From contig NZ_JBFNXJ010000003.1 in assembly GCF_040812015.1 (NCBI RefSeq), positions 62,001 to 126,000 on the forward strand: 64,000 bases of DNA, read 5' to 3'. The position numbers and the translations under genes were made by a program. The DNA is from Chitinivorax sp. PXF-14. Lineage in GTDB: Bacteria; Pseudomonadota; Gammaproteobacteria; Burkholderiales; SCOH01. Shown here piece after piece: positions 2,965 through 64,000 of this stretch (position 1 is the stretch's first letter; each line of letters opens with the position of its first letter). The notes beneath the pieces are model-generated. The model was not told the origin of the DNA. It was given only the letters and a program-made list of their open reading frames with translations, and made no database searches.

Positions 2965-3010
2965 TCGAAAAGACTGGAAAAGCGCGCCGAAGACCTACAG
3001 GCCTTCGGCT
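2965..3010 (-). terminator. Hairpin terminator ending the conserved noncoding segment of element A
   Basis: GCCGAAGACC and GGCCTTCGGC (2986-2995 and 3000-3009) form a 10-bp stem with one wobble pair and a TACA loop. On the leftward strand the stem is followed by CGCTTTTCC and then more thymines. The equivalent hairpin in element B at 63387-63410 has a different stem sequence with the same shape. Confidence 0.65.
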
Positions 3011-3435
3011 CAAGAGGAGGAAACCACCTGTGGGCTGTAGCAGTCCCGTCCGTCGTCCAAAGCCGCTCGCTGCGTCAGCAATCGCACCCGACCCGTGTCG
3101 TGGCTGGGGTCGACATCCTTCGGCACACATCCGCGCACAAAGGGAACCCGTTGTTCCGCCGGCGGGCACCGGCACCGAATACCGTCGACCCGAGGGGTCT
3201 CCTGACGGCTCGCCGCGGCACAGGCCCGCCTGTCGTCAGGAGACCCCTCGTCATCGACGGAAGAGCCTCGATCAACAAAGTCTCAGCAAACGCGATTTGC
3301 GGAGGAACAGCCTTCTCGTCTCGCGGACCCGTCGCTGGGCCGCGAGACGCGCACACCGTTGCAGAAGGAGGCGTGTGCTGGGGAGTCCCGCGGGGCGCGG
3401 GAGGTTGGCCCCGCCGTTGGAAACGGCCGGCGTAG
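2986..3435 (-). ncRNA. Conserved noncoding segment downstream of topB, copy A (candidate large RNA or leader)
   Basis: About 450 bases between the end of topB and the cargo genes match 63387-63857 of element B in order and spacing, although neither copy has a conserved reading frame. Shared blocks include CGCCGGCGGGCACCGGCAC, GCGCACACCGTTGCAGAAGG and CTGGGGAGTCCCGCGGGGCG. A perfect 16-bp inverted repeat (3192-3207 with 3234-3249) is retained in shorter form in copy B. The leftward end is a terminator-like hairpin. In element A an IS3-family element has inserted at its topB-proximal edge. Alternatives are a long 5' leader of the accessory operon or a transfer origin. Confidence 0.5.
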
Positions 3436-3477
3436 TGAACCGCCCCGGGAATCGCGGAGGCTGGTTGGTTTAAGTGC

Positions 3478-4383
3478 TCACGCTGCCACGGCCGATTGCT
3501 CGGCAAGCTGGCGATAGTAGTTTGCCTCAGCCTCGGCCGGCGGGATGTAGCCCAGTGGCCCCATCAACCGGTGGTTGTTGAACCAGGACACCCAAGTCAG
3601 AGTAGCGAGCTCGACGGCTTCGCGGGTCTTCCAAGTGCGCCGGTGAATCACCTCAGCCTTGTACAGACCATTGATCGTCTCGGCCAGGGCGTTGTCGTAG
3701 CTGTCGCCCTTGCTGCCCACAGAGGGCTCCACGCCGGCTTCTGCCAGACGCTCCGAGTACCGGATGGAGACATATTGCGACCCGCGATCGGAGTGATGAA
3801 TCAGACTGCTGTCGCGCTCAGGCTGTCGGTCATACAGCGCTTGCTCCAGCGCATCAAGGACGAAGTCCGTGGTCATTGAGGTGCTCACGCGCCAGCCCAC
3901 GATGCGCCGTGCGAACACATCCACCACGAAAGCCACGTACAGCCAGCCTTGCCAGGTCGAGACGTAGGTGAAGTCCGATACCCACAGCTGGTTGGGCCGT
4001 ACGGCACAGAACTGCCGGTTGACCTTGTCCAGCGGGCACGGTGCTTTGGGGTCGCCGACCGTGGTGCGCACCACCTTGCCGCGCTTGACGCCCTGCAGGC
4101 CCAGACGCCTCATGAGACGCTCAACGGTGCACCGTGCAACGGCCGCACCCTCGCGGTTCATCTGCATCCACACCTTGTCGGCACCGTAGACCTGCAGGTT
4201 CTCGCTCCACACCCTCTCGATGATCGGCATCAGCGCCGCATCGCGCTGGGCTCTGGCGCTCAAAAGCTGAGCGTCTCGCAATCGGGCGGCGTGCCGGCGA
4301 TAGGCCGACGGGGCGATCTGCAGAACACTGCACATCGGCTCGACCCCATGGACTTCGCGGTGTTCGTCCACGAGCCGGTACAT
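3478..4383 (-). CDS. IS3-family transposase OrfB, DDE catalytic domain
   Basis: The 301-residue product contains an HTH_21-like N-terminus (YGADKVWMQMNREG) and an rve integrase core. The DDE residues sit in WVSDFTYV, HHSDRGSQY and ALAETINGLYK. The ATG at 4383 overlaps the OrfA stop codon. In IS3 elements the active transposase is usually an OrfAB fusion made by programmed -1 frameshifting near such an overlap, so independent translation of OrfB is uncertain. No stop codon or frameshift interrupts the domain, and the element appears intact. Confidence 0.93.
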   Translation of the reverse strand: MYRLVDEHREVHGVEPMCSVLQIAPSAYRRHAARLRDAQLLSARAQRDAALMPIIERVWSENLQVYGADKVWMQMNREGAAVARCTVERLMRRLGLQGVKRGKVVRTTVGDPKAPCPLDKVNRQFCAVRPNQLWVSDFTYVSTWQGWLYVAFVVDVFARRIVGWRVSTSMTTDFVLDALEQALYDRQPERDSSLIHHSDRGSQYVSIRYSERLAEAGVEPSVGSKGDSYDNALAETINGLYKAEVIHRRTWKTREAVELATLTWVSWFNNHRLMGPLGYIPPAEAEANYYRQLAEQSAVAA

Positions 4384-4703
4384 CACTTGAATCGGCGGTC
4401 GAGCTCCGCCTGGGCGAAAAACGCGCTGGCCAGCTTCAGGATCTCATTGGCCTTGCGCAGTTCACGGTTCTCGCGTTCAAGTTCCTTGATGCGCTGCGCC
4501 TTGGCCGTGGAGACACCATCACGCTGACCGGAATCGACCTCGTGCTGCTTCACCCAGGTGTGCAAGGTCTGTGGCACGCAGCCGATCTTGTCGGCAATGG
4601 ACTCGATGGCCGCCCACTGCGACGGATGCTCGCTGCGGTGCTCTTGAACCATGCGCACGGCCCGCTCGCGCATCTCGGGGGAAAACTTCGGTGACTTTCT
4701 CAT
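4383..4703 (-). CDS. IS3-family OrfA, helix-turn-helix protein
   Basis: The 106-residue protein has an HTH_Tnp_1-type DNA-binding domain ([13 protein letters not shown], then [15 protein letters not shown]). It is followed by a leucine-rich helix ([20 protein letters not shown]) that would dimerise the transposase. It recognises the terminal inverted repeats in related elements. The gene starts about 50 bp inside the right inverted repeat and its stop overlaps the orfB start, the standard IS3 layout. Confidence 0.92.
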
Positions 4704-4775
4704 CTTGGCTCCATTCTCTAGCGAAGGAGCCTCCGCGAAAGTCGGGGCGGTTCATAGCGCGGGGATTCGTCGACG

Positions 4776-6791
4776 TCAGGAAGCCTTGCGGGACGCCCGC
4801 TGCTTGCGCGGCGCCCCACGCTTGCCTGTCGAGCTATCGATCGGCAGCGTTCCCTTGCAGTCCGGGTAGCGGCTGCACGACCAGAAAGCGCTGCTCTTGC
4901 CGGTGCGCTGGCGCATGGGAGCGCCGCACTGCGGGCAGGATGGTGATGGCGGCAGCTTGATGGCGAGCGTCGCGCCGCTGTACTGCTGCACGAGTTGCGC
5001 CACCCAGGCGGATTGCTTGGCGATGAAGGTGTCCAGTGTCATCTGGCCGGCCTCGATCATGTCCAGGGTCTGCTCCCAGACCGCCGTCGTACCCGGATCG
5101 GCAATGGCCGCCGGTACGGTGTCGATCAAGGTGAAGGCGGCATCCGAGGCGCGGATGGCGCGGCCTTCCTTCAGCAGATAGCCGCGGCCAAGCAGGCCGC
5201 TGATGATGTTGGCGCGCGTGGCTTCGGTGCCGATGCCCGTCGTGTCCTTGAGCTTCTGCTTCAGGCGCGGGTCGGTGACGAGCCTGGCGACGCCTTTCAT
5301 AGCCTTGACCAGTTCGCCCTGCGTGTAGGGCTTGGGCGGCAGGGTCTTCAGCGCCTTCAGGTCGACATGGCCGACCTGGCAGGACAATCCTGCTTGCAGT
5401 GCCGGCAGCACTTGGCTGCGCTGGGCGTCGTCGCCATCCGGATCGCCGTCCTCCAGTGCCGCCAGCAACTGGTGCCACCCGGCCACGGCGATCTGCTTGC
5501 CGACGGCCAGCAGCGACTGCCCGCCGCAAACGAGGTGCGCCACTGTCCGATCGAACTCGTGATGTGGCAGGAACTGCGCCAGGTAATGCGCGCGGATCAG
5601 TCGGTAGACGGCCAGTTCCTTGTCGTTCATGGCCGAAAGGTTGGCGGGTTCCAGTGTCGGGATGATGCCGTGGTGCGCCGTGACCTTGGCGTCGTTCCAG
5701 GCGCGCGAGCGCTGATTGCGGTCCAGGCGATCGATCAATGGGCGCAGACCGGGATCGGTCTTGACCAGGCTGTCGAGAACGGCCGGCACCTCGGCCAGCA
5801 TGCTTTCGGGCAGGTAGCCGGAATCGGAGCGCGGATAGGTCGTCGCCTTGTGCGTCTCGTAGAGCGCCTGGGCGATGTCCAGCGTCTCCTGCACGTCCAG
5901 GCCCAATTGTTTGGAACACACCTCCTGCAGCGTGCCCAGGTCGAACGGCAACGGCGGGCCTTCGCGCACGCGCTCCGTCTCGACCGACACCACCTGGGCG
6001 TTGCTGGCGGCGCGCATGCGTTCCGCGGTCTGCTGGGCAACCGGCTGCTGAAGGCAACGGCCGGCGTCGTCCGTACAACCCTGCGGCGGCGTCCAGCTTG
6101 CGATGACGGATTGGCCGGCATGGGACAGCGTGACCTCGATGGCCCAGAACGGTACGGAGACGAAGCTTGCAATCTCGCGGTCGCGATCCACCACCAGCTT
6201 CAGTGTCGGCGTCTGCACCCGCCCCACCGACAGTACGCCGGTGTAGCCGGCCTGGCGCCCCAGCAGCGTGAACAGTCGGCTCAGGTTCATACCGATCAGC
6301 CAGTCGGCACGCGAGCGGGCCAGGGCCGAGTAGTACAGCGGCAGCGTCTCGGCGGACGGCTTCAACGTGCCCAGTGCCTTGCGGATCGACGCATCGTTGA
6401 GCGCCGACAGCCACAGGCGCTGGATGGGCCCACGGTAGCCGCACAGCTCGATGATCTCGCGGGCGATCATCTCGCCTTCGCGGTCGGCGTCGGTGGCGAT
6501 CACCAGCTCGCTGGCCTGGCCGACGAGCTGCTTGACGATCTTGAACTGCGCGGCGGTCGCCGCCTTGGGCTCGACGCGCCAGCGCTCGGGGATGATGGGC
6601 AGTTGCTCGATGGTCCAGCGCTTGTAGCTCTCGTCATAACCCTCGGGCGGAACCGCTTCGACCAGATGCCCGATGCACCAGGTCACGACGATACCCGCAC
6701 CGCTGTAGCAGCCGGAACTGCGCTGGCCGGCGCCCAGCACACGGGCGATGTCCTTGCCTTGCGAAGGCTTCTCGCACAGGAATACGCGCAT
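4776..6791 (-). CDS. topB: DNA topoisomerase III (type IA)
   Basis: The 671-residue product opens with a TOPRIM domain (Glu7 in FLCEKPSQ, and Asp101-x-Asp103-x-Glu105 in ATDADREGE). The central topoisomerase domain carries GVLSVGRVQTPTL and the active-site Tyr319 in TTYPRSD. The C-terminus has a four-cysteine zinc ribbon (CPQCG ... CSRYPDC) and a basic tail. Type IA enzymes pass single strands through transient breaks and can decatenate replication intermediates; ICEs of this class carry their own copy close to ssb. It follows ssb in the leftward replication/partition module. The IS3 element sits just behind its stop. A second, diverged copy begins at the right edge of the window. Confidence 0.96.
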   Translation of the reverse strand: MRVFLCEKPSQGKDIARVLGAGQRSSGCYSGAGIVVTWCIGHLVEAVPPEGYDESYKRWTIEQLPIIPERWRVEPKAATAAQFKIVKQLVGQASELVIATDADREGEMIAREIIELCGYRGPIQRLWLSALNDASIRKALGTLKPSAETLPLYYSALARSRADWLIGMNLSRLFTLLGRQAGYTGVLSVGRVQTPTLKLVVDRDREIASFVSVPFWAIEVTLSHAGQSVIASWTPPQGCTDDAGRCLQQPVAQQTAERMRAASNAQVVSVETERVREGPPLPFDLGTLQEVCSKQLGLDVQETLDIAQALYETHKATTYPRSDSGYLPESMLAEVPAVLDSLVKTDPGLRPLIDRLDRNQRSRAWNDAKVTAHHGIIPTLEPANLSAMNDKELAVYRLIRAHYLAQFLPHHEFDRTVAHLVCGGQSLLAVGKQIAVAGWHQLLAALEDGDPDGDDAQRSQVLPALQAGLSCQVGHVDLKALKTLPPKPYTQGELVKAMKGVARLVTDPRLKQKLKDTTGIGTEATRANIISGLLGRGYLLKEGRAIRASDAAFTLIDTVPAAIADPGTTAVWEQTLDMIEAGQMTLDTFIAKQSAWVAQLVQQYSGATLAIKLPPSPSCPQCGAPMRQRTGKSSAFWSCSRYPDCKGTLPIDSSTGKRGAPRKQRASRKAS

Positions 6792-7458: not shown

Positions 7459-8003
7459 GATGACTCCTTGGGGGTGGTGGGTATGGTCGCGGCATGCCCG
7501 TGGACACGCCGCAGATAAGTCGCCTCGGCTTGGACCATCCTGCTGGCGCACTCCAGGGCGAGTCGAGCGATGCTGTGGGTCAGGCTGATCTGCATGTTCA
7601 GCGCGATGCGCTGTAGCTCAATCGCATACAGGTCGTCGATCAGCGAGGCCGGTGTCGTGGGGCGATCGAGCAAGGACTCCCACAAGGCGACGCCCATGGC
7701 CGAGCGGTCGAGGTTGCGCCAGCGCAGAAAGGTTGTCCCTGCGCCAGTCGTCTGCTGGGCCAGTTGCACATCGAGCAGATTGAAGGGATAGGCCCGCGCC
7801 TGTGGCAACACCTGCCGTTGTGCCAGGGTGATCAGCTCGTCGCGCAATGCCATGCACTGGCTGGCCCAGGTCTCCAGACTCCCCTTACCTTTAAAGGGCT
7901 GTAAAAGGCCTTTTAGGTAGCCTGCGTGTTCCAGCCGCTGGAAGTCCGCGTGTGCCAGTGGAGTGAAGCGCGATGAACGGCTGGAAGAAGTCGCTGCCAT
8001 CAT
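7455..8003 (-). CDS. DUF3158 family protein
   Basis: The 182-residue product resembles, from memory, the DUF3158 family that accompanies the TIGR03761 gene and ssb in this ICE class. It is mostly helical (LETWASQCMALRDELITLA, FLRWRNLDRSAMGVALWESL) without membrane segments or catalytic motifs. It overlaps the upstream TIGR03761 stop and the downstream ssb start by four bases each (ATGA), so the three genes form a tightly coupled unit. A role in ICE replication or maintenance is inferred only from position. The coding sequence includes an unusual AT-rich hairpin at 7886-7919. Confidence 0.8.
   Translation of the reverse strand: MMAATSSSRSSRFTPLAHADFQRLEHAGYLKGLLQPFKGKGSLETWASQCMALRDELITLAQRQVLPQARAYPFNLLDVQLAQQTTGAGTTFLRWRNLDRSAMGVALWESLLDRPTTPASLIDDLYAIELQRIALNMQISLTHSIARLALECASRMVQAEATYLRRVHGHAATIPTTPKESS
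7886..7919. repeat. AT-rich nested palindromes inside the DUF3158 gene
   Basis: CCTTTAAAGG (7888-7897) and AAAAGGCCTTTT (7903-7914) are perfect palindromes. Together with the outer arms TACCT/AGGTA they can form one long imperfect hairpin. The block contrasts with the high-GC coding sequence around it. It may be a replication or protein-binding site, or a coincidence of coding. Confidence 0.4.
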
Positions 8004-22119: not shown

Positions 22120-23988
22120 CTATCCCTGCTCGTCCCTATCGTTTTCGCTCTGAACTGAGGGATTTTCGCGCTTTGGGGCTTCATTAGCGAGACGCAGATA
22201 AGGATTGTCGGGTGGCACTTCCCCGAATAGCACATCGGACCGCGCCAGCAGATATCCATGAAGCCGCCGCGATTTACGCGGCCCGGTGACATCACAGGTC
22301 CAGATATTCAGGCCACTGGCCTGCTTGCGGTGCACGGCCAGTTTCTCGAAGCGCTTCTGTACCCACTGCCACGCTTCCAACTTCTCCTGCCGGGCGATGA
22401 CCGCGAGCGGGGGGTGCTCCTGCGCGTATCGCTGAAAGACACCGGGGCTCACCAGGTAGGCAGTGCCTGCGACGGTATGCACCAGGGCTTTGGCGTCATT
22501 GATGATGAGCTTGCGCGTCCGCACGCCCTGCGTCAGCCAGGCCATGAAATCTTCGCCGGAGGGTTCGGCTTGGGGCTGCGGCGCTGGGACTGACGGTATC
22601 GGCGGCGTGGGGGCCATCGTCTCGGTGCCGGGATCGTCCTCGGCGTTGGTGACGGGCACAGGCGATATCGCGGGGGCCACTGAGGCAGCGGGGGCCATGT
22701 CCAACAGATCGAGCAGCGCGCCGACGCCGTTGTCCGTCGCCGCGGTCAAGATCGGCGGCGCGGCGCTCGGCCCAGCCTCCGGTACCGTCGCACCAGGCGC
22801 AGTCGGTGTCTGATGTACGGAGTCCTCTTGCTCCTGCTCGACCCTCACCTGGCCTGCGAACGGCGCGGGCCGATCGGCCACCTCCCAGATCAGCGCGGGC
22901 GACAGCTTCAGGAACGTGAAGCTGTGTGACCAGCCGGCATCGCTCGCGACTGTTGCTTTCCAGATCGCCTTGCCGTCCGGCGTGGGCAAGGCGATGCCGT
23001 GGTCCTGCAGCACGTTGAACACCGCCGTGTTGTTGGCCGGAATGCCGTCGATGCCTTGCTGCAGAAGATGCGCGCGCAGTTTGTCCGAGACGGTTTTGCT
23101 CACCAGCCACAAGGCATCCTGGGTCAGCCAGCCATCCGAGGCCTGGGGTTGGTTCAGCTTGAATTCCTCGCGCAGCAGGAAACGCAGGCCATCGAGCAGC
23201 TTGCGCTGGAGGGTGTGCTTGGGCGCGGCCAACGCCTTGCTGGGATCGCCGCCGAGTTCCTGGGCCACCGAGGCCTGGTCGGCCTGCACCACGAGCTCGC
23301 CGAGCGTCCCGGCATGCTCATACTGGCCAGCCAGCACGTACAGGAGCGCGGCCCAGAGGTCGGGATAGCCGACAAGCCAGTCGAAGATGCCGGGATCGAG
23401 CAGCCGAGCGTAGAGCAGCCCTGTGGCGGCGCTGTGCAGCCGGTACTCGCGCTCCTTGAGGTAGCGGAAGCGGTAAGGCCGCCGCAGCGGGCCGTGCCAG
23501 GGGTGCCAGACGGTGCCGTCGGCGTACTCGACGTGCAGGTCCACAGCGATCTTGCCGATGTCGTGCAACAGTGCTGCGTAGGCCGTGCCGGCGGTCCAGG
23601 CCTCAGCCTGGGCTGCCTGCGCCTCCGGCGTAGCACCGGCGGGCAGCAAGTGCGACTGCCGCAGCTTGAGCGCGTAGGCCACGATCTCCAGGCCGTGATC
23701 CAGCATGCCGCCCGGATAGGCATGGTGATGGCTCTCAGATGCGGGGAATTGCTGGACTAACTCGGCGTAGCGTTCCAGCGGCGCCAGGTACAGCGTGGTG
23801 AACTGGCGGCGAGACAGCGAGGTGCGCTGCCAGATGTGTTCCAGCAGTCGCTGCCGGCGCGGTGTCGCCAGCAGCGATGCGGCCGGCTCCGGCCGCATTA
23901 GCCCTTTACCAGGATCGGCGGGAGGTGTGGGTGTCGGCGCCGCGCCGGAGGCGGGCGGCACCCGTTTGCGTTGGAACAGAGAGAGCAT
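22120..23988 (-). CDS. traI: MobH-type conjugative relaxase TraI (PFGI-1 class)
   Basis: The start is the ATG at 23988 (MLSLFQRKRVPP); the frame extends upstream into a repeat-rich noncoding stretch that is not expected to be translated. The 622-residue product has the TraI_2 domain with HHHAYPGGMLDHGLE (about 85-100) and the HD motif LLHDIGKIAVD (about 139-149), which are metal ligands of MobH relaxases. The C-terminal TraI_2_C region follows a proline/alanine-rich linker (about 430-510). It nicks oriT and leads the strand into the recipient. The repeat-rich DNA immediately upstream is the natural oriT candidate. Confidence 0.92.
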   Translation of the reverse strand: MLSLFQRKRVPPASGAAPTPTPPADPGKGLMRPEPAASLLATPRRQRLLEHIWQRTSLSRRQFTTLYLAPLERYAELVQQFPASESHHHAYPGGMLDHGLEIVAYALKLRQSHLLPAGATPEAQAAQAEAWTAGTAYAALLHDIGKIAVDLHVEYADGTVWHPWHGPLRRPYRFRYLKEREYRLHSAATGLLYARLLDPGIFDWLVGYPDLWAALLYVLAGQYEHAGTLGELVVQADQASVAQELGGDPSKALAAPKHTLQRKLLDGLRFLLREEFKLNQPQASDGWLTQDALWLVSKTVSDKLRAHLLQQGIDGIPANNTAVFNVLQDHGIALPTPDGKAIWKATVASDAGWSHSFTFLKLSPALIWEVADRPAPFAGQVRVEQEQEDSVHQTPTAPGATVPEAGPSAAPPILTAATDNGVGALLDLLDMAPAASVAPAISPVPVTNAEDDPGTETMAPTPPIPSVPAPQPQAEPSGEDFMAWLTQGVRTRKLIINDAKALVHTVAGTAYLVSPGVFQRYAQEHPPLAVIARQEKLEAWQWVQKRFEKLAVHRKQASGLNIWTCDVTGPRKSRRLHGYLLARSDVLFGEVPPDNPYLRLANEAPKRENPSVQSENDRDEQG

Positions 23989-24020
23989 GGCGGACCCCGG
24001 GCGGCGAGCCGGTCGGGGGG

Positions 24021-24106
24021 CCTTTGGCCTTTTCGGGTAGGGCCATTCCCCTTGGCCCCATTCCCTTGCCCCTTCCCCAGCCCTTTGGCCTTTAGGAGCC
24101 TTTGGG
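24021..24106. other. Repeat-rich oriT candidate upstream of traI
   Basis: Within the 247-base gap upstream of traI, CCTTTGGCCTTT occurs twice exactly (24021-24032 and 24082-24093), with a third partial copy CCTTTGGG at 24099-24106. Between them ATTCCC-TTGG-CCCC is repeated in tandem (about 24045-24072). Direct repeats next to a relaxase gene are typical of transfer origins; no nick site can be assigned. Confidence 0.4.
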
Positions 24107-24235
24107 TATAGGGGCAGCAACGATGCGACGCCACGATCAATGCGACACAGCGCTATCCCGACAAGCCGGAAGCGCGGCGTGCCCGCTGTGGTGCCTTGCC
24201 CAGATCGGTAGCGAACTGGACGGCCTCCAGCGCCC

Positions 24236-24912: not shown

Positions 24913-26280
24913 TCAGTTCGTCGGGACGCCGTAGCGTTTGAATAGAGCCTCGAAGAAGGTCTTAACGTCTGCCTTGGCCGTGGGCGCCTGCAGCTCCGCT
25001 GCGCCGAAGCGAAAGACCTCGTACCCCGCCAGCTTGAGTTCGCGGTCGGCCCTGACCATCTGCGCGTACTGCTGTACATCGGCGGTGCCTGCGGTATCCG
25101 CGTAGTGGTGTTTGCCGTCGACCTCAATCACGACTCGAACACCCTGCGGCAGCAGGAGCAGGAAGTCCATGCGAAAGCGCAAAAGCGCATCCGGCCCTCG
25201 CTCCTTGACCGTGCGCGGGTCCCAGTGCAACCATACTTCCGGCAGCAGCGCTGGCAGGTTCGGCACGGCACTGCGGAACCCCTCGAAGAAGGCATCGAAC
25301 AGCAGGGACTGCGGCGGGGAGTTGCGGGGCAAGCTGGCCTTGAGGCGCGCGTATAGCGAACGCTTGGCCTGCGTGGCATCCGCGATCTGCTCGGTATCGC
25401 TCCACCATTGCTGCAGGTCGTTCCAGCGCAGTCCGTCGTTGCCGATGGGGCGGTCATAGACTAGCACCTTGTCCGCGTTGGTGACGATCTCGACGTCGTT
25501 GTCCAGCGCGTCACGGAAACGCAGGTCAGGCTTATCGGGTGAGGCGAAGATGAGATTCTTCGGCCTGCCTTTGGTCGCCGCGTGCAACGAGACCATTGAG
25601 AAGACCGGGTAGCCGCCCTCCGAACCAGTCTCACGCAGCTCAACGCCGCAACTGCGCAACGACTCGTTGACGCATGCGACGAAGTGGCGTTGCGCTGCCT
25701 CGTCGGGGCGCACATCGGCCGAAGCGAGTCCCTCCAGGAACAGCGCAAAGCGCCGGTCGGAAGCATCATAGGCGCCCAACTGGTCGAACAATGTTTCAGC
25801 CGGCCAGTCCTCCGGATTGCGATGGACGTGCTGCTGAATTTCTGCGCGCAATCCCGTGGGCTTCCCACCCAGCATGTGCATCCAGTCATCGGCATCCAAG
25901 ATCCACATTTGCTCCAGCAAGTCGTCGAACTTGCGAGCATCCCCATACAGCTCTTCGTTATTGAGCCGCCGCGCGACCTCGCGCCGATACCGCTTCGGGA
26001 TCGGTGGACACGCACTGTCGCTCCAGAGAATGTCCTGAATCTGGTTGCGCGTGGTGGCATTGGGCGGATGGCGCACCAGCAGCTTGCGTGCAACCGCAGG
26101 CAGGTCGGTGTCCGCTACCGCGTCGAAGCTGGAGGTCATGCGCTCGCGCTTGGAACCGTCAGCGGCAGGCGCAGGCAGCCCCAATTCTTCGCAAAGCGTC
26201 GGCAGCATGGTATGCGTGCCGGCGTCTTTCAACCCCGTGACGAGCGGTTCCAGCAGCGTGCGAAGTTGCGCGTAGTCCAT
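24913..26280 (-). CDS. Abortive-infection-like protein with C-terminal PD-(D/E)XK nuclease-like domain
   Basis: The 455-residue product has an N-terminal helical domain (LRTLLEPLVTGLKDAGTH, SKRERMTSSFDAV) that weakly recalls AbiJ N-terminal domains. The C-terminal 86 residues look like a DUF559/Vsr-type endonuclease: RMDFLLLLPQGVRVVIEVDGKHHY in two parts (Asp372, Glu386, Lys390), then RADRELKLAGYEVFRFGAAEL. It is flanked by the HEPN-like gene and the AbiE-like pair. The domain order suggests phage defence with nucleic-acid cleavage, an inference from fold and neighbourhood only. Confidence 0.65.
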   Translation of the reverse strand: MDYAQLRTLLEPLVTGLKDAGTHTMLPTLCEELGLPAPAADGSKRERMTSSFDAVADTDLPAVARKLLVRHPPNATTRNQIQDILWSDSACPPIPKRYRREVARRLNNEELYGDARKFDDLLEQMWILDADDWMHMLGGKPTGLRAEIQQHVHRNPEDWPAETLFDQLGAYDASDRRFALFLEGLASADVRPDEAAQRHFVACVNESLRSCGVELRETGSEGGYPVFSMVSLHAATKGRPKNLIFASPDKPDLRFRDALDNDVEIVTNADKVLVYDRPIGNDGLRWNDLQQWWSDTEQIADATQAKRSLYARLKASLPRNSPPQSLLFDAFFEGFRSAVPNLPALLPEVWLHWDPRTVKERGPDALLRFRMDFLLLLPQGVRVVIEVDGKHHYADTAGTADVQQYAQMVRADRELKLAGYEVFRFGAAELQAPTAKADVKTFFEALFKRYGVPTN

Positions 26281-35012: not shown

Positions 35013-35160
35013 GGCAGTCTCCAAAGAAGGTGCGGGAACGCCATGCAGCCCTGCGGGCGTGGGCGACCCGCGTGGGATGAACAACAAGCGAAGGAAGAAC
35101 GTGCATCCGCCACCGCGGCGCGGCGGCTGTTCGCGTCCAGGATGTGAGGCGAACGGGGCC

Positions 35161-35241
35161 GATCAGCGCGGCCGGGGCCGCGTCGTAGCCTTGAAGATCG
35201 GGGCTACCTGGGCATGTCGCCGAGGGACTCGGCGGGCATTT
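35161..35241 (-). ncRNA. Three-hairpin repeat element, copy 2 of 6
   Basis: Stems: GCGCGGCC with GGCCGCGT (35166-35173 with 35176-35183), GTAGCC with GGCTAC (35185-35190 with 35202-35207), and CGCCGAG with CTCGGCG (35218-35224 with 35228-35234). The outer CATG pair of the third stem is lost here (CATT). The element overlaps the stop codon and last residues of the dsbA-like gene and is 150 bases upstream of the 196-residue gene. Confidence 0.7.
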
Positions 35242-35959
35242 CCTTCGATGCAGTCTCGGTGGTGCCGCCGGCCGCCAGCAGATCGATGGCCGACAGCAGC
35301 GCATCGCCCTCCACCGGGCCATGCAGCAGCAGCGTCTTGCCGGACTGGCGGTCCTGCAGGCGCAGCGTGGGCGTGACCTTGATGCCCTCCTGCACGGCGC
35401 TCGCCGACTGCGTGCGGATCAGCGTGTCGGGGCGCTCGCTGTCCAGGCACTGCTGGGCGGACGGCGTGATGCCGGGATAGCCCAGGCCCTCGGGCAGGCC
35501 CTGGCCGTCGCCCCGGGTGTGTGCGTAGACCCATTCGACGGCCTGCCAGAACGCGGTCGGGCCGCCGGCCTCGCCGACGCACTCAACCAGGCGCGCATTG
35601 GCGGACGCGGCCGGCTCGTGCGTCGTCAGCGGCAGGTGGTGCCACTGCCAGTTCACCTCCGGGTGTGCGTCGATCCACCGCTTGAGCACCGGGAAGTACG
35701 CGCGGCAGAACGGGCATTCAAAGTCGGCGTACTCGATCACCGTGAAGCGCGCATCGTCTCGGCCATAGCGCCACGGCGGACCGGACGAGGTTGAGGTCAT
35801 CGTCACCGGCGCCGCAGTGGCTTCGGCGGAGAGCGAAATGGGCTCGGCGGTCGGCGCCTGCCGGTGCAGGCCCAACCAAGCCGCTGCGATCAGCGCGGCG
35901 ATCAGCAGCAGCGCGACGAAGGCGACGGATCGCGACGGCATGAAGCGATTGATCTGCAT
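35204..35959 (-). CDS. DsbA/DsbC-like thiol:disulfide oxidoreductase
   Basis: The 251-residue product has one N-terminal membrane anchor (VAFVALLLIAALIAAAWLGL) and a thioredoxin fold with the active site Cys82-Pro-Phe-Cys85 in FECPFCRAYFP. A cis-proline region, GIKVTPTLRL, fits DsbA-family enzymes. It would act in the periplasm on the cysteine-rich TraU-like and TIGR03755 proteins. It lies between the ATPase gene (13-base gap) and the accessory 196-residue gene. The final residues are encoded by the three-hairpin element, so the C-terminus may be an addition specific to this copy. Confidence 0.9.
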   Translation of the reverse strand: MQINRFMPSRSVAFVALLLIAALIAAAWLGLHRQAPTAEPISLSAEATAAPVTMTSTSSGPPWRYGRDDARFTVIEYADFECPFCRAYFPVLKRWIDAHPEVNWQWHHLPLTTHEPAASANARLVECVGEAGGPTAFWQAVEWVYAHTRGDGQGLPEGLGYPGITPSAQQCLDSERPDTLIRTQSASAVQEGIKVTPTLRLQDRQSGKTLLLHGPVEGDALLSAIDLLAAGGTTETASKEMPAESLGDMPR

Positions 35960-54784: not shown

Positions 54785-54884
54785 GGTGATGTCCTCGAAG
54801 TGAGCGGAGACAGCACCACCCGCGAGGGCAATCACTGCCCCTGGGGGATGGAAGAGAACGCGGTAAGCGTCGTGGCGAAGAATC

Positions 54885-54963
54885 AGAACGTGCGTCGCAA
54901 CGCACCGTAGCCTTGAAGGTCTGGGCTACCTGGGCATGTTGTCGGCAACGCCGACGGACATGG
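54885..54963 (-). ncRNA. Three-hairpin repeat element, copy 3 of 6
   Basis: Stems: GTGCGT with ACGCAC (54890-54895 with 54900-54905), GTAGCC with GGCTAC (54907-54912 with 54924-54929), GTCGGC with GCCGAC (54941-54946 with 54950-54955), and an outer CATG with CATG. It lies between a terminator (55055-55095) and the 218-residue gene, 101 bases upstream of its ATG. Confidence 0.72.
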
Positions 54964-55054
54964 GCCATAGCCTGCGCCAAGAGGTGCGTGCCGCGTGAGC
55001 CGAAAACCGACCTGGCACGCAACCCTGTTTTCCTTGACGCTTGCGCCGCCGGCA

Positions 55055-55098: not shown

Positions 55099-55926
55099 TC
55101 AGGCTTTGAGCTGACGCAGGCCATCCGCGAGCAGCCACAGCGCCCGGTTGAGCCGGACGTTCTGGTCGATGCCCTGGACGGGTCGCGTGCGCTGCTGGCG
55201 CCCGTTGGCGGCGCGGCCGTTCAGGCCGCCCTTGACCAGGTTTTCCTGGACCCGGTTGAAGACCGACCACAGATCGGCGCGGTTGTCGTCGAAACGGCGG
55301 GGCCGCAGGATCTGGGTCTCGGTAATGGGCAAGGCCTTGCCCGAATCGTCGTACTTCAAGGTCAGCGCCGACCTGGCGAAGACTTCGGCCTCGCCGTTGT
55401 CCAGCGTAATGCCCCGCATGGCGTCGCGCGAGTCCTGCACGCGCTCGAAGCCGTGCAGCACCTCGTAGGCGCCTTCGATCACGTGATCGGTGACGTTGCC
55501 CTTATGGGGCACCCGCACGTCGGCGAAGGTATCGCCGCACACCAGGCCGTTGTGGCAGACGAAGCGGAACATGCCCGCGAGCATCTGGTAGCTGCTGCTG
55601 CCGTCGTGCGAGTTGAGCAGGATGATCTCGTTCGCCTCGGCGCCGTTGATCTGGCTGGCGTGGCGAAGGCGCAGCATGTGCTTGGTGTAGTCGCGGCGAT
55701 CCTCGTGTCGCACGCGGGTCTGGCACACCATGAACGGCTGGAAACCCTCCTTGCGAAGTTCGGTCAGCACAGCCGCCGTGGGGATGTAGCTGTACCGTTC
55801 GGATCGGCTTTCGTGCGGGTTGTCCGCGAAGATGGACGGGACCACGGTGCGAATCTGATCGTCCGACAGCGGATGGTCGGCGCGCAGCACCGGGGAACGA
55901 GAAGCGAAGCGGGATGCGAGTTGCAT
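55099..55926 (-). CDS. DUF932 family protein
   Basis: The 275-residue product begins MQLASRFASRSPVLRADHPL at the ATG at 55926. Blocks such as YSYIPTAAVLTELRKEGFQP, EIILLNSHDGSSSYQMLAGM and MFRFVCHNGLVCGDTF are the DUF932 signature found in phages and plasmids. The histidine, aspartate and glycine residues in HDGSS and CHNG are conserved in the family. The function is unknown; an association with phage-like replication is often assumed. A strong terminator follows and another hairpin precedes the gene. Confidence 0.9.
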   Translation of the reverse strand: MQLASRFASRSPVLRADHPLSDDQIRTVVPSIFADNPHESRSERYSYIPTAAVLTELRKEGFQPFMVCQTRVRHEDRRDYTKHMLRLRHASQINGAEANEIILLNSHDGSSSYQMLAGMFRFVCHNGLVCGDTFADVRVPHKGNVTDHVIEGAYEVLHGFERVQDSRDAMRGITLDNGEAEVFARSALTLKYDDSGKALPITETQILRPRRFDDNRADLWSVFNRVQENLVKGGLNGRAANGRQQRTRPVQGIDQNVRLNRALWLLADGLRQLKA

Positions 55927-58131: not shown

Positions 58132-58285
58132 GGTGAATCTCCTGAGAACAAAGAGGCGGAGACACACCCGACCCAAGGCGGGGAAGGTGTGGAACCCCCG
58201 CGTGGGTTGAAGGGACAGCTTGGGTGGCATCACCATCGGGAGAACCGATGGCCGTTCGCGCTTGGATGCCGGAGCGAACTGGTTG

Positions 58286-58368
58286 ATCAGCGCGGTCGGA
58301 ACCGCGTCGCAGCCTTGAAGATCGAGACTGCCTGGGCATGCTGCTGACGGGTGTCAGCGGAACATGGC
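58286..58368 (-). ncRNA. Three-hairpin repeat element, copy 4 of 6
   Basis: Stems: GCGCGG with CCGCGT (58290-58295 with 58302-58307), GCAGCC with GACTGC (58309-58314 with 58326-58331, one mismatch), GCTGAC with GTCAGC (58343-58348 with 58353-58358), and outer CATG with CATG. It is in the 323-base gap between the XF1762-like gene and the DUF3577 gene, 155 bases upstream of the latter's ATG. Confidence 0.72.
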
Positions 58369-58454
58369 GACAGCGTGGCGCCGGACGCGCGCCCGCGCGA
58401 GCGGCAATCGGCACCGGCGGCTGTCCGCATTGGCGACCTGTGCCAGGCTCGCCG

Positions 58455-61161: not shown

Positions 61162-61267
61162 TGGGAGGCTCCTTGTGGCAATCCAAGGAACTTCCGCCCG
61201 CAAGGGAGGCATGTCCCTTGGGGGTGAGGTGGATGGACGCGACATGCGCCCCGGAGAAGGAAAAACA

Positions 61268-61346
61268 ACCAGCACGGCGAACCGCGCCGCAGCCTCGAAG
61301 GTCTCGACTGCCTGGGCATGCTTGCCGGCAACGCCAGCGAACATGC
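61268..61346 (-). ncRNA. Three-hairpin repeat element, copy 5 of 6
   Basis: Stems: GCACGG with CCGCGC (61272-61277 with 61282-61287, one mismatch), GCAGCC with GACTGC (61289-61294 with 61306-61311, one mismatch), GCCGGC with GCCAGC (61324-61329 with 61333-61338, one mismatch), and outer GCATG with CATGC (61316-61320 with 61342-61346). It lies between a terminator and the 265-residue gene. Confidence 0.7.
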
Positions 61347-61419
61347 GAGCAGCGTGCGTCAGGCACAGGGCCAACGTCGCGGGGGAATCGGCATTGCACC
61401 GCCACCGGCTTCGTCCAGA

Positions 61420-63050: not shown

Positions 63051-63185
63051 GGGTTTCTCCTGGTGGTTGAAGACCGGGAGCACCACGCCCTGACGGGAGC
63101 GGATACCTCCCGAAGGGTTGAACATCGAAAGCACCCGCGTCGTGGCGACGCGCGTCCGCGGTGGTCGGTGCGAAGCGGACTGGAT

Positions 63186-63268
63186 CGGTCAACGCGGCGA
63201 ACCGCATTGCAGCCTTGAAGACCGGGGCTGCCAGGGCATGGTGCTGACGACCGTCAGCGACACATGCG
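63186..63268 (-). ncRNA. Three-hairpin repeat element, copy 6 of 6
   Basis: Stems: CAACGCGG with CCGCATTG (63190-63197 with 63202-63209, one mismatch; the last G overlaps the next stem), GCAGCC with GGCTGC (63209-63214 with 63226-63231), GCTGACG with CGTCAGC (63243-63249 with 63252-63258), and outer GCATG with CATGC (63236-63240 with 63263-63267). It is the element B counterpart of copy 1 (1440-1530). Confidence 0.73.
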
Positions 63269-63379
63269 GGAAGGATGGAAGCGTGGCAGCGCGCCGTCAC
63301 CGATCAAACGGAACCGAACACCGTCCGGTTTGGCCTGGGCGCTGCTGCCCTCGGCGACGCACGATCCGTCTACCTACGA

Positions 63380-63412
63380 CAAAGGAGCCGAAGTCCCGAA
63401 GGACTTCGGCTG
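63380..63412 (-). terminator. Hairpin ending the noncoding segment of element B
   Basis: GCCGAAGTCC and GGACTTCGGC (63387-63396 and 63401-63410) form a perfect 10-bp stem, closed on the leftward strand by a TTCG loop and followed by TCCTTTGTC. It corresponds to 2986-3009 of element A. Confidence 0.6.
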
Positions 63413-63857
63413 GAGAGGAATCAATCCACCTGTGGGCTGCAAGCAGGCAAGGCCGTCGTCAAAGCCATTCGCTGCGTCAGCAATCTCACCCGGCCCGTTT
63501 CGTGGCTGGGGCCGGCATCCTCTGGCGTGTATCCACACACAAAGGGAGCCCATTGTTTCGCCGGCGGGCACCGGCACTGAATACCGTCAACCGCAAGCAG
63601 TCTCCTGGCACCTCGCAGCCTTGCGGGCCAAGGCGTCAGGAGACCGCTCCCGGATCGACGGAAGCAACTCGATCAACGGACCCGCGACAAGCGCGATTCG
63701 ATGGAGAAAAGACCTTCTCGCCCTGCCAGCCGTGATCGGCCCGTGCAGGGCGCGCACACCGTTGCAGAAGGGAACGCGCGCTGGGGAGTCCCGCGGGGCG
63801 CGGGAGGTTTGCCCCGCCGTCGGCAGCAGCCGGCGTGGCAGAGGGAGACGTGGGGCG
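63387..63857 (-). ncRNA. Conserved noncoding segment downstream of topB, copy B
   Basis: This 471-base stretch lies between the second topB stop and the three-hairpin leader of the 83-residue gene. It is collinear with 2986-3435 of element A. It shares CGCCGGCGGGCACCGGCAC, GAATACCGTC and GCGCACACCGTTGCAGAAGG and keeps an inverted repeat GTCTCCTG/CAGGAGAC (63600-63607 with 63637-63644). Divergence elsewhere without a shared reading frame argues for selection on RNA or DNA structure. Confidence 0.5.
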
Positions 63858-64000
63858 TCAGTTCGCCTTGGGGCGCCGGCGCGGTGCGTTGGATGTACGG
63901 CTGGATACGCCGCGCTTGCCTGCCACGGCATCTTCGACCGGCTGCGTGCCCTTGCAGTCCGGGTAGCGGCTGCAAGACCAGAACGCGCCGCTCTTGCCGC
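63858..64000 (-). CDS. topB: DNA topoisomerase III of element B, C-terminus only (partial)
   Basis: The last 47 codons of a second type IA topoisomerase gene enter from the right edge. GKSGAFWSCSRYPDCKGTQP is the same zinc-ribbon segment as in the complete protein at 4776-6791. The tail differs, being rich in Arg and Pro (NAPRRRPKAN), so this is a diverged paralogue rather than an assembly duplicate. Its start lies outside the window. Confidence 0.9.
   Translation of the reverse strand, partial: GKSGAFWSCSRYPDCKGTQPVEDAVAGKRGVSSRTSNAPRRRPKAN

Follow-up and report, generated by a model that had tools for sequence, protein, structure and literature searches.

A likely PesA-related structured noncoding RNA in the backbone of ICEclc-type and related conjugative elements

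To our knowledge, the regulatory RNA PesA has so far been described from one Pseudomonas aeruginosa island only. PesA (SPA0021) is encoded on PAPI-1 of P. aeruginosa PA14 downstream of pilM2 on the same strand and overlaps the 3′ end of PA14_59370. The RNA, which was shown by Northern blot, has a size of about 260 nt, arises by processing of a longer transcript, and builds up in stationary phase (PMC5493400). Its described function is that of a cargo RNA acting on pyocin S3, and a later paper counts it among the cargo of PAPI-1 (PMC8565334).

The window analyzed here, a stretch of 64,000 nucleotides from Chitinivorax sp. PXF-14, carries two elements with a noncoding block on the 3′ side of topB. 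These blocks had been noticed in a preliminary description as collinear and devoid of a common reading frame, and both observations were borne out: the copies in elements A and B are 77% identical over 450 nt, and 383 of 450 indels in the alignment of homologues have lengths not divisible by three. Because these indels break the frame, a conserved short protein does not account for the conservation, and the protein-coding reading was rejected; one antisense frame is open for 52 codons in 32 of 32 sequences. The two loci comprise the following features:

2986..3435, minus strand: RNA region of element A, separated from topB by an IS3-type element
3048..3064, minus strand: lesions found only in copy A, an inserted G and GCC changed to GAC, in a helix kept by the relatives
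3436..4754, minus strand: IS3-family element with ALIL pseudoknot, between topB and RNA of element A
4776..6791, minus strand: topB of element A, situated 5′ of the RNA; homologous loci are annotated as DNA topoisomerase III
63387..63857, minus strand: RNA region of element B, from directly after the topB stop codon to the 3′ hairpin
63858-63860: stop codon of topB of element B

The boundary of block A at position 3435 is explained by the IS3-type element starting at 3436, which is flanked by a 3-bp target duplication (TAG, 3433-3435 and 4755-4757). The helix lesions, present in one of 68 sequences, together with this insertion suggest that copy A has probably been decaying since the IS insertion. 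Copy B looks intact, and the folding of its RNA exceeds chance expectation (z = −4.37 on the topB strand, 0 of 100 shuffles as good; z = −2.48 on the opposite strand). We consider it likely that the region encodes a discrete, structured noncoding RNA of the ICE backbone, which is read from the topB strand, is homologous to PesA, and acts in trans for the ICE.

The RNA begins with a variable 5′ domain, which is followed by a long hairpin, a pseudoknotted 3′ core of about 165 nt, and, at the 3′ end, a hairpin resembling a terminator. R1 denotes a covariance model of the 3′ core built from ICEclc-type copies. From 5′ to 3′, the parts of the RNA are:

63751..63781, minus strand: 5′-domain hairpin of B, GCGCGC..GTGCGC, read by eye from alignments, without statistics
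63584..63661, minus strand: long hairpin of B, preceding the core; lineages differ in sequence and share the shape
3182..3260, minus strand: long hairpin of A, identical with the inverted repeat noticed previously
63425..63591, minus strand: conserved 3′ core of B (model R1), cmsearch 191 bits
3023..3189, minus strand: conserved 3′ core of A (model R1), cmsearch 184 bits
63559..63576, minus strand: core hairpin 1 of B (CCGG/CCGG); its GCCC loop is able to pair with GGGC at 63548-63551
63525..63540, minus strand: core hairpin 3 of B, with a GGAU loop and six pairs that are canonical to at least 99%
63490..63515, minus strand: core hairpin 4 of B, with the stem CCGGCC/GGCCGG and a conserved CAGCCACGAAAC loop
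63426..63439, minus strand: conserved 3′ strand CAGCCCACAGGTGG, which closes the core of B
63387..63410, minus strand: terminator-like 3′ hairpin of B
2986..3009, minus strand: terminator-like 3′ hairpin of A

As noted earlier, the inverted repeat is perfect in A and its counterpart in B imperfect, but it comprises 17 bp (3191-3207/3234-3250) and not the 16 bp given before. Between the lineages, the long hairpin consists of unrelated sequences in a single shape, so that the sequence turnover is complete; the 5′-domain hairpin is also recognizable in other lineages with a different stem sequence, as far as the alignments can be read. Within the core, the GCCC/GGGC pseudoknot of hairpin 1 is paired in 281 of 284 cells and shows compensatory changes in five sequences (L028, L050, L261, L267, and L282), and none of its single pairs was significant in the covariation analysis. 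Hairpin 3 contains a top-ranked covarying pair (C-G to U-A), and an alternative register with the GGAU loop fits better than the modeled one. Binding of CsrA/RsmA via this loop was considered and is not favored, since some members carry GUAU or other loops. In hairpin 4, all seven pairs display double changes, and the best covarying pair of the alignment is located here.

Aligning the region across many ICEs revealed compensatory changes in the 3′ core. For 71 distinct, divergent cores, in an alignment fitted to the model, 91.6% of the cells pair across the 38 core pairs. Changes on both sides occurred in 22 of these pairs, which none of 500 shuffles matched, and 175 double-change cells were observed compared to 43 in the shuffles. 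Because this alignment had been fitted to the model, the analysis was repeated on a plain, unfitted MAFFT alignment, and the null was obtained by relocating substitutions along the tree. Under this phylogeny-aware null, the four top-ranked column pairs were all helix pairs, and one helix pair was significant among all approximately 13,000 column pairs (E 0.025). A test confined to the structure pairs, for which the fitted alignment was used, gave E < 0.05 for six pairs belonging to four helices. In the full-length alignment of ICEclc-type sequences, a single pair passed the strict genome-wide covariation test, so that less certainty attaches to the 5′ domain than to the core. On the topB strand, G.U was found in 107 cells of 20 pairs versus A.C in 20 cells of six pairs, and G.U was the default in four pairs and A.C in none. 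This excess indicates that the structure is read on the topB strand.

Rfam 15 contained no family above the gathering threshold for the region; below the threshold, microRNA-type chance hairpins were listed. GOLLD, ROOL, and OLE are large, highly structured noncoding RNAs, the first two of which are also found in mobile elements. Structures have been reported (PMC12286853). The RNA of the window has no Rfam match to them, differs in size, and gave no indication of oligomers. Among structured RNAs of the same elements, the radC RNA (RF01754) forms a dense set of six copies in the window:

1397-1537, 35103-35250, 54818-54972, 58227-58376, 61194-61355, and 63131-63276, minus strand: radC RNAs

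The radC RNA is a cis-regulatory motif of about 149 nt ahead of genes and does not match the region. ARAGORN also listed a tRNA-Ser on the plus strand (55162-55240) within a DUF932 gene, which is probably a false positive.

To determine the distribution of the element, topB was searched in one genome per species, which yielded 80 loci. The element was located directly 3′ of topB in all 53 of the best, ICE-type topB loci; these loci belong to Beta-, Gamma-, and Alphaproteobacteria, including Pectobacterium, Rhizobium, and Acetobacteraceae. It was absent from all 27 more distant topB loci. R1 detected the element in 68 of 398 sampled Pseudomonadaceae genomes, in 8 of 399 genomes of the window's order, in 4 of 398 genomes of the phylum, and in 2 of 274 genomes in another draw from the class, with E-values of 1e-12 to 1e-25 for divergent members. 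Homologues are thus present in dozens of genomes. No homologue was found in E. coli genomes by blastn, and a short loose pattern gave mainly chance matches in viral_contigs. The preliminary description had compared two copies of one genome; the element spans far more than this class of ICE.

The slot of the RNA is defined by its upstream side. The gap to topB is steady at about 250-290 nt in most loci, and where topB is absent, a gap of 385-400 nt separates the RNA from pilM. The pilM-adjacent slot was found in pKLC102, pUM505, and P. veronii (L084), whereas the copies of the window lie behind topB; in topB-linked relatives such as L044, pilM is situated further upstream. In L016, the RNA has lost its 3′ hairpin: immediately after the core, beyond position 6440, an insertion bearing an IS6-type end (GGCACTGTTGCAAA) has taken its place. 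Which gene comes next on the downstream side varies between loci, and its distance from the RNA ranges from 0.3 to 3.6 kb; in pKLC102, it is an unrelated gene. This variability, set against the stable upstream distance, makes a leader for one operon unlikely. An attenuating leader for the accessory operon had been proposed earlier. If so, the downstream mRNA would begin with the RNA, and the 3′ hairpin would be a regulated terminator. Same-strand genes do follow the RNA, the block ends in a terminator-like hairpin, and these elements have radC cis-regulatory RNAs ahead of many genes; nevertheless, PesA accumulates as a free RNA of about 260 nt (PMC5493400), and we regard a cis-acting leader as very improbable.

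Transcription signals were detected in other lineages. In lineage 3 (P. fluorescens-type ICEs), TTGAC[A/G]-N17/18-TGTAGT follows the upstream gene and is kept amid variable surroundings, and in the pKLC102 lineage, TTGATA-N17-CATAAT is located directly behind pilM. Two of three lineages thus have sigma70-like promoter signals at the 5′ end, and a discrete transcript of about 480-550 nt is predicted for them. A consensus scan found no sigma70-like promoter in the window. At the other end, the hairpins described earlier for both copies are real in A and B, but the T tracts behind them are weak, and a terminator scanner barely accepted B and rejected A. The stem shape of this hairpin is kept in nearly all members, and a strong T run is present in part of lineage 3.

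The topB transcript of ICEclc runs toward the RNA region and is induced in stationary phase (PMC2892462). As no promoter was found in the window, the ICEclc-type RNA may originate from this transcript; the window copy would yield an RNA of about 450 nt either by topB read-through or from an unrecognized promoter. The same two observations would fit a stable 3′ untranslated region of the topB mRNA whose fold is protective and which lacks a function of its own. This we consider unlikely, because the RNA also occurs behind pilM without topB, promoter-like sequences lie between gene and RNA in two lineages, and the loops are as conserved as the stems.

The comparison with PesA was made via its closest relatives. 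A search with the pilM-linked form of the RNA recovered pKLC102 and pUM505 of P. aeruginosa, in which the gene order is pilM, RNA, other genes, and the gene for an STY4534-type protein. R1, although built from ICEclc-type copies, matches both at E 2.8e-14 and also matches other pilM-linked members (L302 at E 2.3e-17). In pKLC102, the match is located behind pilM (4335-4491 of L300), and a 260-nt stretch measured from the 3′ hairpin in the 5′ direction extends to the base of the long hairpin. The pKLC102 RNA and PesA thus agree in the slot behind pilM, the strand, and a compatible size and 3′ end. The window copy differs from PesA in that it follows topB, has another 5′ domain, and lacks an evident sigma70-like promoter. 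Homology to PesA is strongly suggested by the sister element pKLC102 in combination with the published gene positions, and the window region most likely represents the ICEclc-family branch of an unrecognized family of PesA-like RNAs, which is absent from Rfam 15. The pilM-linked form also occurs in two unverified bacteriophage records from human stool, L302 (MT835540.1) and L303 (MT836063.1), which look more like ICE fragments than phages.

ICEclc has two origins of transfer (oriTs; PMC5714925, PMC6561031), and oriTs of this type are marked by CCCTTT/GCCTTT repeats (PMC9298801). Like the RNA region, oriT1 and oriT2 are conserved noncoding regions of the same ICE family; they differ from it in their repeat clusters. 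In the window, an oriT-like CCTTTGGCCTTT cluster (24017-24110) is located at the start of the relaxase gene traI (TraI_2 domain, ORF 22120-24120), with six motifs in 375 bp compared to 0.66 per kb in the window. A gene adjoining the traI region (24913-26280) encodes a protein with an AbiJ N-terminal domain 3 and a possible function in phage defense. A second, weaker cluster (CCTTTAAAGGGCTGTAAAAGGCCTTTT, 7876-7925) was found about 1.1 kb upstream of topB in element A and, likewise upstream of topB, in genome G544; it is a candidate second oriT for ICEclc-type elements. G544 contains two RNA copies 342.7 kb apart, identical over about 10 kb, a layout like that of the two ICEclc copies described for strain B13 (PMC3395598), which G544 presumably is. 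Here, too, the repeats cluster at traI and upstream of topB, and the RNA has isolated motifs only.

These results bear on whether the region is a DNA element instead, namely oriT2 of ICEclc or a single-strand or replication origin whose helices form in single-stranded DNA, as had also been proposed. The existence of two oriTs in ICEclc, the topoisomerase and ssb genes nearby, the tolerance of G.T in single-stranded DNA as well, and the single CCCTTT motif in each RNA region are in line with it. One motif does not, however, amount to the repeat cluster of ICEclc-type oriTs, and such clusters lie elsewhere in both genomes. Moreover, in other lineages the element is situated between promoter-like sequences and 3′ hairpins, and its pKLC102-type relative has been proven to be an RNA. 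The proposal of a second origin is weakened accordingly: the RNA region is probably not an origin of transfer, and a DNA origin of any kind appears highly unlikely.

A large structured ICE RNA, one of the possibilities named at the outset, is supported by the covariation, the strand asymmetry, the promoter and terminator signals in relatives, and the Northern-proven relative PesA. The RNA of the window would be processed like PesA to a 3′ species consisting of long hairpin, core, and terminator, and would act in trans via exposed conserved loops or a bound protein. It would thereby serve the ICE and not the cargo. In view of the spread of the family, the PesA-like RNA reads as backbone, contrary to its listing as cargo, and most carriers have no evident reason to carry the pyocin S3 target. 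That the conjugative elements of this superfamily depend on the RNA, acting in its folded form or within a ribonucleoprotein, to transfer or replicate themselves is a more tentative proposition, which we hold to be possible but somewhat doubtful. According to the citing passage in PMC3349714, transfer of PAPI-1 was reportedly reduced by an insertion in PA14_59370, a gene overlapping with pesA; this may fit a role of the RNA in transfer, and other causes are possible.

If the homology is right, PesA is one branch of a conserved family in the backbones of ICEclc-, pKLC102/PAPI-1-, Pectobacterium-, and alphaproteobacterial-type elements and not a strain-specific cargo RNA. The effects of PesA on virulence and pyocin would then be by-products in one host, provided that the backbone function holds true, and transfer-defective mutants mapped to the PAPI-1 gene overlapping pesA would gain an alternative reading. 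This would provide, for elements carrying resistance and degradation genes, a structured RNA that is clearly modeled, occupies a fixed slot, and has a testable role in horizontal transfer.
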